Source: Cytobacillus sp. NCCP-133
GTDB taxonomy: Bacteria; Bacillota; Bacilli; Bacillales; Cytobacillaceae
Assembly: GCF_026011715.1 (NCBI RefSeq)
Contig: NZ_BRVM01000002.1
Coordinates: 186,001-250,000 of the forward strand
DNA length: 64,000 nucleotides
Reading direction: 5' to 3'
Shown here: positions 3,135 through 41,491 of the stretch, one piece after another
How the letters are laid out: each line of letters begins with the position of its first letter
How positions within the stretch are numbered: the first letter of the stretch is position 1
Notes under the pieces: model-generated
Databases searched by the model: none
What the model was told of the DNA's origin: nothing
What the model saw: the letters and a program-made list of their open reading frames with translations, nothing else
Made by a program: the position numbers and the translations under genes

Positions 3135-4415
3135 ATGGCACGAAATTTAGGATTTTACGGCGCGTTAGCCTTTTGTTTATACGGTTTGTTTTTTTATTGG
3201 TATTTATTTTACTTTGCGGATAGCAGTCTCCCATTTGAATACGAAGATTCTCGTGCGGACCCCGCAACTTTCCTGAACGGCAGGGAGCTGATGCTGACTG
3301 AGGAATATTCTAAAATTAGAAACTTGCTGTTTTTCATTTCAACACCTTTTGAATGGATATTCTATTTATTCATTCTTTTATTTGGCTTGTCAAAGGCTTT
3401 TAAAAAATGGGCAGAGCAAACAACGCCATATAAGTTTCTGCAGACAGCAATCTATCTCATCTGGCTTTCATTTTTCGCATTTACTGCCACAATGCCGTTA
3501 AGCTATATTAGTTATTCTTTATCGAAAAGCTATAATATTTCAACCCAGAGCTTCAGCGCGTGGATGAAGGATGAGCTCATTGATTTTTGGGTTAATTATG
3601 GAACCATGCTTCTGATTGTTTCTGTTTTATACTGGCTGATCAATAAGAGCAAGAAAAGATGGTGGCTTTACGCCTGGTTCTTATCCATCCCTTTTACATT
3701 GTTTATGATGTTCCTTCAGCCTGTTGTCATTGATCCTCTCTATAATGATTTTTATCCTTTGAAAAATAAAGAACTTGAAACGAAGATCCTTGAACTGGCT
3801 AATCAGGCCAATATCCCGGCTGAACATGTTTTTGAAGTGGACATGGCGGAAAAAACGAATGCACTGAACGCTTATGTAACAGGGATTGGCTCTAACTCAA
3901 GAATTGTGCTTTGGGATACAACTCTTAGCAAATTAAATGAAGATCAAATTCTGTTTATTATGGCGCATGAAATGGCCCATTACGTAGAAAAGCATATTTA
4001 CATCGGCATCGCAGGCTATTTGTTGCTCTCGCTTCTTGGCCTGTATTTAACCGCCAAGCTAATGGAAAAGGCTATTGATAAATGGGGAAGGGCGCTTAAA
4101 ATTCCTGCTGTGAATGATATTAGGTCACTGCCGTTATTCTTTATGATCCTTTCGATGCTTTTATTCATGTCAAGCCCATTTACTAACCTCGTTTCACGCT
4201 ACCAGGAAACCCGGGCTGATCGGTATGCGGTCGAAATGACCGAAGATTCGGATTCAGCAATTGAAACATTTCAGGAGCTGACACGTGCTGGCTTGAGTCA
4301 GGTGAACCCGCCGCTCCTCGTAAAAATATTCCGATACGGCCATCCAACTATGCTGGAGAGGATCAGTATGATGGAAGAGTTTGAAATTGAACAGAGAAAA
4401 AAGGAAAGGAAATAG
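3135..4415 (+). CDS. M48-family membrane metalloprotease (Ste24/CAAX-protease-like)
   Basis: A 426-residue integral membrane zinc protease. The zinc-binding HEMAH motif is at residues 278-282 and the third ligand is probably Glu358 in QETRADRYA, both typical of Ste24-type M48 peptidases. Several hydrophobic segments lie before the catalytic part (about 8-28, 72-92, 110-130, 155-190) and two after it (about 290-310, 330-350). These enzymes generally act on membrane or mis-localised proteins. Six G bases act as the ribosome site before the ATG. The gene is followed directly by a structured repeat element. Confidence 0.9.
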   Translation: MARNLGFYGALAFCLYGLFFYWYLFYFADSSLPFEYEDSRADPATFLNGRELMLTEEYSKIRNLLFFISTPFEWIFYLFILLFGLSKAFKKWAEQTTPYKFLQTAIYLIWLSFFAFTATMPLSYISYSLSKSYNISTQSFSAWMKDELIDFWVNYGTMLLIVSVLYWLINKSKKRWWLYAWFLSIPFTLFMMFLQPVVIDPLYNDFYPLKNKELETKILELANQANIPAEHVFEVDMAEKTNALNAYVTGIGSNSRIVLWDTTLSKLNEDQILFIMAHEMAHYVEKHIYIGIAGYLLLSLLGLYLTAKLMEKAIDKWGRALKIPAVNDIRSLPLFFMILSMLLFMSSPFTNLVSRYQETRADRYAVEMTEDSDSAIETFQELTRAGLSQVNPPLLVKIFRYGHPTMLERISMMEEFEIEQRKKERK

Positions 4416-4422
4416 TCCCGAT

Positions 4423-4564
4423 AAAGTGAAACTTCAATCAGCGGGGTGCATTATCCCCGCTGATTGTTAGTTGAACCAATCGGGCCTTTACGGGCGGTTA
4501 GCTGTGCTTTTTGTCAAGCCACTTTGATAGAACTGAGTCATGAAGAGAGAGTTTTACTGCCCGT
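4423..4564 (+). repeat. Two-hairpin structured element, copy 1
   Basis: The order is AAAGTGAAACTT (4423-4434), a 12-base-pair hairpin (4435-4446 with 4455-4466), TTAGTTGAAC (4467-4476), CA, ATCGGG, CCTTT, then a second 9-base-pair stem (ACGGGCGGT 4490-4498 with ACTGCCCGT 4556-4564, one G-T pair) around a 57-base loop. A second copy on the minus strand at 40397-40504 keeps every linker and its length but has different stem sequences. Hairpin 1 may also terminate the M48 transcript, although no T-run follows it. Confidence 0.7.
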
Positions 4565-4574
4565 TAGTCTGCTT

Positions 4575-5211
4575 TTAGGTTTTTTTATAAGTATGTATGT
4601 TGCCATTCATAGTAGCCGGCACCTCACTTTTAAAATAAATGCCGGCACCATCATCGATCCCATAGCCTATTGAGGCATCAATATTCTTAGTGGCAGCTTC
4701 TAGATTTTTCTTTTCATTCCATTTTGAAAAATGAACACTGATGGCACAACTATTGATTAATCCAATGCCTTTAAGAAAGAGATGCTGTTTTTTTTCGTGT
4801 ATCAACGGGAGGAATAGCGCAAGGATCTGGACAAATTAATGCCCCTGCCGAAAAGCCTGCAACTGGAATGCCTTCTCTATACATATTCTGTATTCTTCTG
4901 CCAACTGCTGTGTCCATTATATAGTTCCTGTATTTTTCTGTTTCGCCTCCTCCAATTATGATTCCTGAACAAAATTCCAATTCCTTAAGAAGACTGGCGG
5001 ATGGCGAATCAGAGAGTGGAAGATAATAGAAGTCTTCAGCTCCATAGCGCTTTAAATCCCTCGTATATTTGTTCATATAGTCTCGCCAGCCTTCCCTTTT
5101 TATAAAAAGGACTGCGGTTCTTTCGAGAGAAAGCTCTGCAAATATTTTTCTTATTGTTTCTCCAAAAGGCGGGCTGCCGCCCATTAAAAATAAGTGCCTG
5201 TTTCTTAAGAT
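4575..5211 (-). pseudogene. S51-family peptidase (type 1 glutamine amidotransferase-like), frameshifted
   Basis: The product resembles the dipeptidase E/cyanophycinase-like S51 family. It has the HLFLMGG start region, the GGGETEKY loop and the nucleophile elbow AGFSAGA. The frame breaks in a run of eight A (minus strand, about 4787-4794). With seven A the protein reads on into KKQHLFLKGIGL and the typical ending YGIDDGAGIYF. In addition, no ATG/GTG/TTG lies at the expected place behind GGTGGAG (5216-5222); the codon there is ATC (5211-5209), and the first ATG is inside the GG loop region (5184). It may be a pseudogene, a sequencing error, or a gene expressed by polymerase slippage. Confidence 0.7.
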
Positions 5212-11790: not shown

Positions 11791-12200
11791 TAATATCAGA
11801 ATTTATATCCTTTTGAAATTAGATAACTGTCTAGCTCCAGGTGCCTACCCCTTCGAGGTCAGAAGCTTGTCTAGTTCCGGCTCCTAGAGACTCGGGGTCA
11901 TAAGCCGATTCCTTCCAGAAGGGAAAACACCTTCTTACAGGAACCGTCTTATGCCTGTCGTCCCTGGACAGTCGCCTCCACATTTCGGTTTGTCTAGTTC
12001 CGGCTCCTAGAGACTCGGGGTCATAAGCCGATTCCTTCCAGAAGGGAAAACACCTTCCCGCAGGACAAGGAAGGCTTCGTCAGCAAAAACATCGCACGGC
12101 CGAAAGCGGCAGCTTTTGGGAGGACGGGGGTCATGCAGACGTTGCCACAGGACGTGGCGCTTTTAGTCTAGGTTCCTTCGTGGTCAAGGCGCCCTGCGCT
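11789..12200. repeat. Composite dispersed repeat region
   Basis: This is the longest gene-free, relatively GC-rich block. It opens with copy B of the post-terminator repeat (11789-11845, ending CTGTCTAGCTCCAGGTGCC). It then holds two exact 68-base copies (11867-11934 and 11990-12057, GTCTAGTTCCGGCTCC type) and ends with a tail (12090-12195) containing TTTTGGGAGG and TTCCTTCGTGGTCAAGGCG. The tail resembles the sequence at 38600-38665, which also follows a CTGTCTAGCT word, so the whole block appears to be one long element present elsewhere as a decayed copy. No open frame of note. Confidence 0.7.
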
Positions 12201-39844: not shown

Positions 39845-40336
39845 TTAGCGGTAGTTAACGAACTGGACGTCAACCGTTATATCAGCTTCTTTAACTGCTG
39901 TAATAATCTTCTGAAGATCATCACGGTTTTTCCCCGTTACACGAACCTGGTCATCCTGCACTTGACTCTTAACTTTTAAGCCGCTGTTCTTAATAAGGGT
40001 ATTAATTTTCTTTGCATTCTCTTTATCAATGCCCTGAACAAGTTTGGCTCTTTGGCGTACAGTTCCGCCCGATGCTCCTTCAACTTTGCTGTAATCAAGG
40101 TTTTTTATCGGGATCCCTCTTTTAATTAACTTGCTTAATAAAACATCCTTAAGCTGTTCAAGTTTAAACTCATCATCAGAGACCAGTACAAGTTCTTCCT
40201 TATCCAGTTTGATGTCACTTTTGCTACCTTTAAAGTCATAACGTGTGGAAATTTCCTTCATCGCAATATTAATTGCATTGGTTACTTCTGAAAATTCTAC
40301 TTTAGATACAATATCAAATGAGCTTTCTTTAGACAT
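39845..40336 (-). CDS. yitK: YajQ-family nucleotide-binding protein (UPF0234)
   Basis: A 163-residue soluble protein of the YajQ family, two ferredoxin-like domains; relatives bind nucleotides, and in some proteobacteria c-di-GMP. The motifs [11 protein letters not shown] and [15 protein letters not shown] are typical. The ATG at 40336 is behind AAGGAGG; the frame is open upstream to 40366 but without a site. The length equals that of B. subtilis YitK. It is preceded by the structured repeat element, which lies in its leader. Confidence 0.9.
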
Positions 40337-40368
40337 GGCAGCCTCCTTGGACATTACAATTTTCATTT

Positions 40369-40504
40369 AAAAGAAGTTTCACTTTTCCGCGTTATAACTG
40401 TCCGTAGAAGATAGTATATCAAGAAGCTGAAACGGACAGTAAAAACCCGATAAGTTCAACTAACTTTTTGAAGGAAAAGCGCCTTCAAAAAGAAGTTTCA
40501 CTTT
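40369..40504 (-). repeat. Two-hairpin structured element, copy 2, with a 17-base direct repeat
   Basis: Read on the minus strand: AAAGTGAAACTT (40504-40493), an 11-base-pair hairpin (40492-40482 with 40474-40464), TTAGTTGAAC (40463-40454), TT, ATCGGG, TTTTT, then a perfect 9-base-pair stem (ACTGTCCGT 40440-40432 with ACGGACAGT 40405-40397). Linkers and their lengths equal those of copy 1 at 4423-4564, while both stems are different. The word AAAAGAAGTTTCACTTT occurs exactly at 40369-40385 and 40488-40504, flanking the element. Confidence 0.72.
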
Positions 40505-40627
40505 ACCTTCTTATTATAGTAAAATATAGCAGTTCGAACAACTTTAGGAGTTATAAGATCTTTATAGGGAAAGATTTAATATAATGAATATTTGGTGTTT
40601 ACAGTGATAAAAAGGAGGTAACAAGCA

Positions 40628-41491
40628 ATGGCATTAGAGGAGTACTTGGGCCGTACAGCCGCGCTGACTGTATCAAGGGAAGCGGCATTTGGGTATTTTT
40701 TGACTGATGGAGAGGAAGATATCCTGCTCCATGAAAATGAAACAGAGGGTAAGCTTGAAGAAGGACAGGAGGTTGAGGCTTTTCTTTATGTAGATTCTCA
40801 GGGGAGAATTGCCGCGACAACCAGGATTCCCGAAATACAGGCTGGTACATATGGCTGGGCGCAAGTAAGTGATGTAAAACCCGGGATAGGGGTATTTATC
40901 AATATTGGTGTGCAGAAGGATATGCTTCTGGGAGAAGAAGATTTGCCTGTTCATAAAGCTGTATGGCCGCAAGAAGGGGACAGGCTGTATATTACCCTTC
41001 GTGTGAATAAAAACAACCGAATTTATGTAAAAATGGCTACCGATCCTTTAATAAGTGAAATGGCTGTAAAGGCTGTAAGAAGTGATTTTAATAAGAACAT
41101 TCATGGGCATATTTACAGAACAGCGAAGGTCGGAAGCTGGATTTATACAGCAGAGGGTTTTAAGGGTTTTATCCATGAATCCCAGCGAAAAAGGGAGCCG
41201 CGCCTCGGTGAAAAGGTTGAAGGGCGTATTGTGGATGTAAAGGAAGATGGAACTGTGAATATTTCTTTAATCGCGAGAAAGCACGAAGTACTTGATGAAG
41301 ATTCGGAAAAGATCCTTTCCTACCTGGAAAGCCGTAATGGTGCGATGCCATTTAGTGATAAAAGCGCACCAGAAGACATTCAGGAGCGTTTCCAGCTTAG
41401 CAAAGCTTCCTTCAAAAGAGCTTTGGGCAGGCTGATGAAAGAAGGTAAGGTGTATCAGGAGGACAGCTGGACATATATAAAGAAAGACTAG
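40628..41491 (+). CDS. cvfB: CvfB-family S1 RNA-binding protein
   Basis: A 287-residue protein (B. subtilis YitL). Three S1-type OB folds (about 1-65, 70-135 and 145-215) are followed by a winged helix (about 225-287, ending TYIKKD). Staphylococcal CvfB binds RNA and influences virulence-gene expression; the role in bacilli is unclear. GFINIG-like S1 strands appear as GVFINIGVQKDMLL and EGRIVDVKEDGTVNISL. AAAGGAGGT precedes the ATG, and TATAAT at 40580-40585 may be its -10. Confidence 0.87.
   Translation: MALEEYLGRTAALTVSREAAFGYFLTDGEEDILLHENETEGKLEEGQEVEAFLYVDSQGRIAATTRIPEIQAGTYGWAQVSDVKPGIGVFINIGVQKDMLLGEEDLPVHKAVWPQEGDRLYITLRVNKNNRIYVKMATDPLISEMAVKAVRSDFNKNIHGHIYRTAKVGSWIYTAEGFKGFIHESQRKREPRLGEKVEGRIVDVKEDGTVNISLIARKHEVLDEDSEKILSYLESRNGAMPFSDKSAPEDIQERFQLSKASFKRALGRLMKEGKVYQEDSWTYIKKD

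Follow-up and report, generated by a model that had tools for sequence, protein, structure and literature searches.

Two copies of the element in the window and their general build

The 64-kb window, by which we mean the whole stretch of DNA analysed here, contains two copies of a short structured element on opposite strands. A check of the window sequence finds both at the coordinates, and with the linkers and hairpins, given for them in the original prediction. Copy 1 (4421-4577, + strand) lies downstream of an ORF (3135-4415) that has an M48 peptidase domain, and begins 5 nt past its stop codon, in agreement with the prediction that one copy follows a protease gene. It opens with the 5' boundary pentamer ATAAA (4421-4425), within which AAAGTGAAACTT starts at 4423, and continues with GTGAAACT (4426-4433), the 5' half of a conserved lower stem, and the variable stem of hairpin 1 (4435-4466). 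The linker TTAGTTGAAC (4467-4476) then includes AGTTGAAC (4469-4476), the 3' half of the lower stem, and is followed by the conserved ATCGGG (4479-4484) and hairpin 2 (4490-4564). The outer arms of hairpin 2 (4490-4498 and 4556-4564) enclose an inner arm, and there is one G.T pair within the hairpin. The 3' limit of the copy is approximate and was set by comparison with other copies.

Copy 2 (40383-40506, - strand, the 3' limit again approximate) has GTAAA as its 5' boundary pentamer (40502-40506), with AAAGTGAAACTT starting at 40504. Hairpin 1 (40464-40492), TTAGTTGAAC (40454-40463), ATCGGG (40446-40451) and hairpin 2 (40397-40440, arms 40440-40432 and 40405-40397) follow in the same order, all on the - strand. 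A partial second unit, GTGAAACTTCTTTT (40369-40382, - strand), is joined head-to-tail to this copy and was not seen at the orthologous locus of a related genome (L047 in G004). The flanking genes are a CvfB-domain ORF (40628-41491, +) and a DUF520 ORF (39845-40366, -), the latter called yitK in the original prediction. Both copies extend beyond the limits originally drawn for them: the 5' start is the ATAAA or GTAAA that stands directly before GTG, and the 3' end lies about 10-13 nt past hairpin 2, at a second pentamer that is degenerate in both window copies when compared with others. Elsewhere in the window, the Bacillaceae-1 RNA (Rfam RF01690) matches at 12121-12182 (- strand) with a score above the gathering threshold.

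Across genomes, the element is about 155 bases long and encodes no protein. From 185 distinct copies, 149 with a recognisable hairpin 2 were retained and 61 of these, 112-163 bp in length, were aligned (alignment A1); nested forms were left out, as were three loci, the near-duplicates and copies of very short length. The consensus runs ATAAA, GTGAAACT, T, hairpin 1, TT, AGTTGAAC, two variable bases and ATCGGG, followed by 5 nt, hairpin 2, a tail of the form TTA..CTGCG or TTAATGCGGG, and a closing ATAAA. Immediately before this boundary the tail finishes in TGCG or CGGG. Hairpin 2 consists of 9-bp outer arms and a looser inner arm. The frame is fixed while the stems of the two hairpins vary yet remain paired; the invariance of the linkers in A1 is due to the copies having been selected by exact linkers, a selection that was not applied to the stems. 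The linkers GTGAAACT and AGTTGAAC can themselves pair, GT with AC and AACT with AGTT, on either side of a tandem G.A mismatch. AACT/AGTT is paired in all six predicted folds (four as single-strand DNA, two as RNA), and the pairs outside the G.A/A.G mismatch appear in some of the six only. The two window copies differ in their stems, as predicted; this does not extend to the element at large, in which a few stems are common to many copies. Among 153 distinct sequences of hairpin 1, the opening and closing letters are CAATCAG/CTGATTG in 49, CCATCAG/CTGATGG in 23 and CATTCAG/CTGAATG in 17.

Pairing in the variable stems

The original prediction held that pairing is conserved while sequence is not, and the alignment bears this out. 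In A1, 90.8% of 2178 cells of the named structure are paired, against 79.6% in shuffled alignments; 218 cells carry a double change, against 67.3, and 26 of the 37 pairs show at least one, against 20.0. None of 500 shuffles attained any of five covariation measures, a figure that is not a probability since the shuffles ignore relatedness. Controls in which the partner was slid by 1-3 columns point the same way, with just 27.7-46.9% of cells paired. The inner arm of hairpin 2 is imperfect (73.8% paired). A compensated change can also be seen in place: at L047, the orthologue of copy 2, a G to A change in one arm faces a C to T change at the opposite position, giving ACTATCCGT/ACGGATAGT in place of the window's ACTGTCCGT/ACGGACAGT. 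Folding of the window copies as RNA yields z-scores of -4.69 and -5.44.

Hairpin 1 is almost wholly Watson-Crick, with 1058 such cells, 13 G.T, 8 A.C and 33 others. G.T pairs make up 1.2% of hairpin-1 cells and 3.7% of hairpin-2 cells. When the + strand is read, G.T pairs outnumber A.C by 27 to 13 (p = 0.038, relatedness uncorrected; hairpin 2 taken from the 42 of 67 distinct arm pairs that passed a filter), and in A1 the two hairpins have counts of 17 to 8 and 9 to 0. For hairpin 1 alone (13 to 8) the difference is not significant. The excess hints weakly at the + strand as the folding strand.

Distribution, insertion sites and arrays

An exact pattern of the element, in which the linkers are fixed and the stems variable but paired, matches 12 times in the genome that contains the window, and matches in 50 of 151 genomes (this one included) and 18 of 78 genera. 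The same pattern read backwards gives no match in any of the 151 genomes, so the 12 copies are not a product of chance. A covariance model was used at two levels: in the order, 110 of 299 genomes (62 of 117 genera) contain the element, and in the class 51 of 398 (29 of 146 genera). These figures are not copy numbers, since only about 10 candidates per genome were scored in the order and 7 in the class. Among the matches listed, at least 119 stretches from named genomes carry the element, including those of Cytobacillus, Peribacillus, Neobacillus, Lysinibacillus, Sporosarcina, Virgibacillus, Oceanobacillus and Siminovitchia. Relatives in the same genus hold up to 66 exact copies (in G001, a single contig), with 19 in G011, 39 in G020 and none in 7 of the 35. 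The exact pattern has no match in viral contigs, and a single 200-base query has none in phage records and matches 5 of 72,556 plasmid records. A partial match (79.4% over 68 query bases) lies at 1501-1564 of L233, from a record labelled as the Klebsiella grimontii plasmid pNY3A (CP079755.1), which is perhaps mislabelled or mixed.

ATAAA stands at the 5' end in 202 of 235 matches and at the 3' end in 143 of the 181 matches with a recognised tail motif (loci overlap in both counts), and conservation is strong at the pentamers with little beyond them (among 180 distinct flanks on the left and 137 on the right). Copies lie mostly between genes, with 4 of 171 non-redundant copies overlapping a mechanically called ORF of more than 150 aa. 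For the 166 copies with both neighbours read, both ORFs lie on the strand of the element in 49 and on the opposite strand in 54, the two ORFs are divergent around 35 copies and convergent around 28, and there is no strand preference relative to the neighbours. In a tally of frame ends around 84 non-redundant copies in the fetched sequence, open frames that enter the element from the 5' side stop at the TAA of ATAAA in 7 of 49 cases and where AGTGA gives TGA in 6 of 49 (a codon deduced from the consensus sequence); of 45 on the 3' side, at most 3 end at any one position.

Comparison of filled with empty sites among 270 clusters of copies, drawn from all fetched sequence and in many cases redundant or overlapping, gave 17 rows that correspond to 15 distinct loci. 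One pair of genomes compared in this way is G001 and G003. In the first 0.4 Mb of each, alignments of more than 1 kb cover 188 kb, with 97.1% identity. Seven of the 17 clusters in 1.2 Mb of G001 are empty in G003, and 3 of the 11 clusters in 1.2 Mb of G003 are empty in G001. At four of the loci compared between these two genomes, the flanks of the empty site are exactly 5 bp apart with nothing left unaligned. Read by eye, the pentamer of the empty site is exactly ATAAA at 5 of the 15 loci, one base off at 4 (ATTAA, ATAAT, ATAAG and GTAAA, at one locus each), and two or more bases off or hard to read at 6. The ends of the filled site are not always alike. At L134 the empty site has ATAAG and the filled site ATAAA at 5' and ATAAG at 3', and at L020, where the flanks are merely 77-83% alike, the empty GTAAA corresponds to GTAAA at 5' and AAAAA at 3'. 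At six loci with unequal ends, the 3' pentamer is nearer to the empty site at four and the 5' pentamer at one, the remaining locus being unreadable; six loci are too few to fix a mechanism. At some loci both boundary pentamers differ from the empty one, as at position 938642 of G001, where the filled site has ATAAA on both sides and the empty site ACTTA. Plain duplication does not account for this, nor does a target on one side, unless repair or subsequent mutation is invoked. Precise loss of the element would give the same filled and empty picture as its insertion.

Copies also occur in arrays. A further head-to-tail unit follows 38 of 239 copies (loci overlap), full in 25 and partial in 13, and the junction is ATAAA in 28 of the 38. 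Where G001 has a three-unit array (613686-614254), G003 has a short chimeric remnant (in a joined stretch near 394989), suggesting deletion between the units of an array. In the stretches read, an inner module of about 112 bp is present in 9 of the 17 G001 clusters and 2 of the 11 G003 clusters, accompanied by extra sequence in two of these G001 clusters and one of the G003 clusters. This module repeats the design in reverse orientation (GTGAAACTT-hairpin-TTAGTTGAACCAATCGGG-hairpin) and is set in the TTAGTTGAAC linker. Within the first 0.8 Mb of G001 and G003, three loci that are filled in both genomes have the module in one and not in the other, in near-identical surroundings; gene conversion between copies and nested insertion are both possible sources of the difference. 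Other inner insertions measure about 67-70, 116-129 and 228-253 bp. A second repeat (GACAAGCA.AAGACGAGC ... GGGGCTAGG or similar) was seen beside or inside copies, after the element at L002 and in the joined stretch 247459-247847 of G003.

Proposed mode of spread and relation to known repeats

Both window loci are probably copies of a short mobile element that is non-coding and occurs across many genera of Bacilli. We favour a mobile repeat over an RNA gene because the copies are mostly intergenic without strand preference, usually bounded by ATAAA, in part arranged in arrays, and present or absent at 15 loci that are otherwise conserved. Where the original prediction left the choice between a structured RNA and a mobile repeat, the dispersed copies, the ATAAA ends, the arrays and the filled and empty sites bear out the mobile half; the context, with near-equal numbers of sense and antisense placements (49 and 54) and the reversed nested design, lends no support to the RNA half. 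No mobilising gene was found beside the copies: when 1130 ORFs called mechanically in their neighbourhood were compared all against all, no transposase-like or recombinase-like ORF was seen by eye in the 25 largest clusters. The largest cluster (25 ORFs at 22 loci, at scattered distances) looks like ABC transporters and was rejected as a partner gene. A search of all fetched sequence for half-elements 20-5000 bp apart on one strand gave no larger, gene-bearing version: all but two pairs are 67-253 bp apart, a spacing that inner modules explain, and the remaining pairs, at 3294 and 3634 bp, appear to be halves of neighbouring copies. Searches with Pfam models found no Y1 transposase (PF01797) in G001, G011 and G020, among 22 genomes searched, and no reverse transcriptase (PF00078, RVT_1) in the same three, among 16. 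The tyrosine recombinase family PF00589 matches in all 16 genomes searched, with four matches in G001, in open frames of 300, 314, 285 and 203 aa, two of them of Xer length. The same-genus genome G033 has 29 reverse-transcriptase matches, mostly of equal score, and no exact copy of the repeat; these look like a burst of one intron family.

We suggest that a protein supplied in trans would recognise the folded element by its shape and its fixed linkers, and that the element would be recombined into an ATAAA-like pentamer by site-specific recombination with a 5-bp exchange region, leaving one pentamer on each side. Since insertion would leave ATAAA at both ends, the element would itself be a target, and arrays would follow. 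Plain target duplication predicts three equal pentamers; mixed ones are expected if a 5-bp overlap is exchanged and then replicated or repaired. As the boundary pentamers often differ between the two ends or from the empty site, short-overlap exchange suits the sites better, though the sample is small. In its most specific form, the proposal is of a class of gene-less elements that are recognised as a folded strand, through shape and a few constant linkers and not through the letters of the arms, and inserted at ATAAA, through a 5-bp exchange, by a host tyrosine recombinase with other duties. We offer this tentatively, as a possibility rather than the expected outcome; on this proposal the candidate in G001 would be one of only four PF00589 matches. 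It is also possible that the enzyme has been lost since the last insertions, or that it lies outside the families searched.

The same stems can be read in other ways. Selection on structure, which the original prediction took the covariation to mark, is likely, but it is not the sole reading: arms that serve as templates for one another when the DNA is replicated or repaired (quasi-palindrome correction) could also stay paired without selection. The nearly all-Watson-Crick stems with few wobble intermediates (13 G.T cells in hairpin 1) are what such correction would leave. It does not explain the fixed linkers, the fixed positions of the stems or their wide persistence, and the imperfect inner arm of hairpin 2 also counts against it, making it a doubtful account of the pairing. 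That the element is instead a structured non-coding RNA, acting in trans or as a UTR element, with spread of the DNA incidental, is unlikely. The strong covariation, the folding z-scores and the + strand excess of G.T pairs are all consistent with an RNA. The tandem G.A mismatch of the lower stem, a familiar RNA motif, is a further point in its favour. Against this stand the lack of strand preference, the rarity of G.T pairs, and the presence and absence of copies at conserved sites. Nor does any Rfam family reach its gathering score on either window copy, RF01690 being the only match in the window, and eight loci searched up to E = 1 gave two T-boxes and two matches at E = 0.55, none on the element. 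Expression has been reported for 50.9% and 40.0% of the bcr1-18 intergenic repeats in two B. cereus strains (PMC3446304), a further point for the RNA reading.

Two further alternatives retain mobility and replace the enzyme. A single-stranded-DNA element moved in trans by a Y1 transposase, of the IS200/IS605 or REP-associated kind, would carry the target pentamer on one side and its own on the other. Hairpins near both ends, a pentamer at each end and the lack of a visible terminal inverted repeat agree with this, as does the 3' pentamer being nearer to the empty site at four of the five readable loci with unequal ends. We nevertheless consider it improbable: the three carriers G001, G011 and G020 have no PF01797 match although 7 of the 17 G001 clusters are empty in G003, five genomes of the same genus (G017, G021, G026, G031 and G033) have Y1 matches without an exact copy, and the weak G.T excess would lie on the strand opposite to the one expected to fold. 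Least probable is a retro-element, a bacterial counterpart of SINEs, in which a structured RNA would be copied into ATAAA/TTTAT by a reverse transcriptase. Its RNA-like fold, the slight G.T excess and a fixed 3' end that matches the target would suit such a route; the three carriers without PF00078, the 29 matches in G033 beside zero exact copies, and the lack of strand preference argue against it.

The closest likeness among known repeats is to bcr1 (BCR group A). To our knowledge, no enzyme is known to mobilise repeats of this kind, which are about 155 bp in size and are reported only from the B. cereus group. In the literature, bcr1 is described as a non-coding, multicopy stem-loop repeat with a TTTAT motif, for which movement resembling site-specific recombination has been proposed (PMC6542083), as 147-167 bp in size (PMC2267715), and as MITE-like (PMC3446304). 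Judged against these descriptions, the present element is similar in size (112-163 bp) and has stem-loops, TTTAT (= ATAAA) ends (202 of 235 at 5', 143 of 181 at 3', loci overlapping) and apparent mobility: it is non-coding, multicopy and intergenic (4 of 171 copies in an ORF of more than 150 aa), and present or absent at 15 distinct conserved sites. The difference is one of distribution and not of build, since bcr1 is reported as group-restricted and the present element occurs in many other genera. Because the likeness is by description alone, we do not file the element as bcr1 and regard "bcr1-like structured mobile repeat" as the safest name. The 74-bp Bhal-1 of Bacillus halodurans (PMC2267715) may be part of the present element. 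In the literature covered, which included few subscription papers, there was no description of the repeat outside the B. cereus group, and papers containing the linker strings, among the matches listed, look unrelated from their titles.

REP/RAYT sequences and palindrome-associated derivatives of IS200/IS605 are likewise hairpin-based, intergenic and without coding capacity. Tags of GTAG/CGTC are given in PMC3733652. The present element is longer, ends in ATAAA rather than GTAG/CGTC, and has no Y1 gene in three carriers. Classical MITEs are similarly short, non-coding and multicopy, but the terminal inverted repeats of a DDE-transposon MITE were not found by eye at the ends of A1, where ATAAAGTGAAACTT and reversed TTTATCCCGCATTAA share ATAAA/TTTAT only. 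In integration of the Tn916 type, the short overlap sequences are unequal at the two ends, as the boundary pentamers often are here; the present element carries no gene and its target is near ATAAA. Integron attC sites are recombined in folded form and combine variable stems with a few short motifs that are fixed, a likeness shared by the present element, which differs in being bounded by ATAAA. The match of its GTTGAAC to the attC motif GTTRRRY is probably due to chance.

An element of bcr1-like description is found in many genera of Bacilli, and its position differs between two genomes that are 97% identical in their aligned parts (G001 and G003). Its covarying stems on a fixed frame provide a data set for asking whether a folded strand of DNA or of RNA is recognised. 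If the mover is a tyrosine recombinase, the list of candidates is short, with four in G001. A covariance model of the element would mark many intergenic copies in genome annotation.
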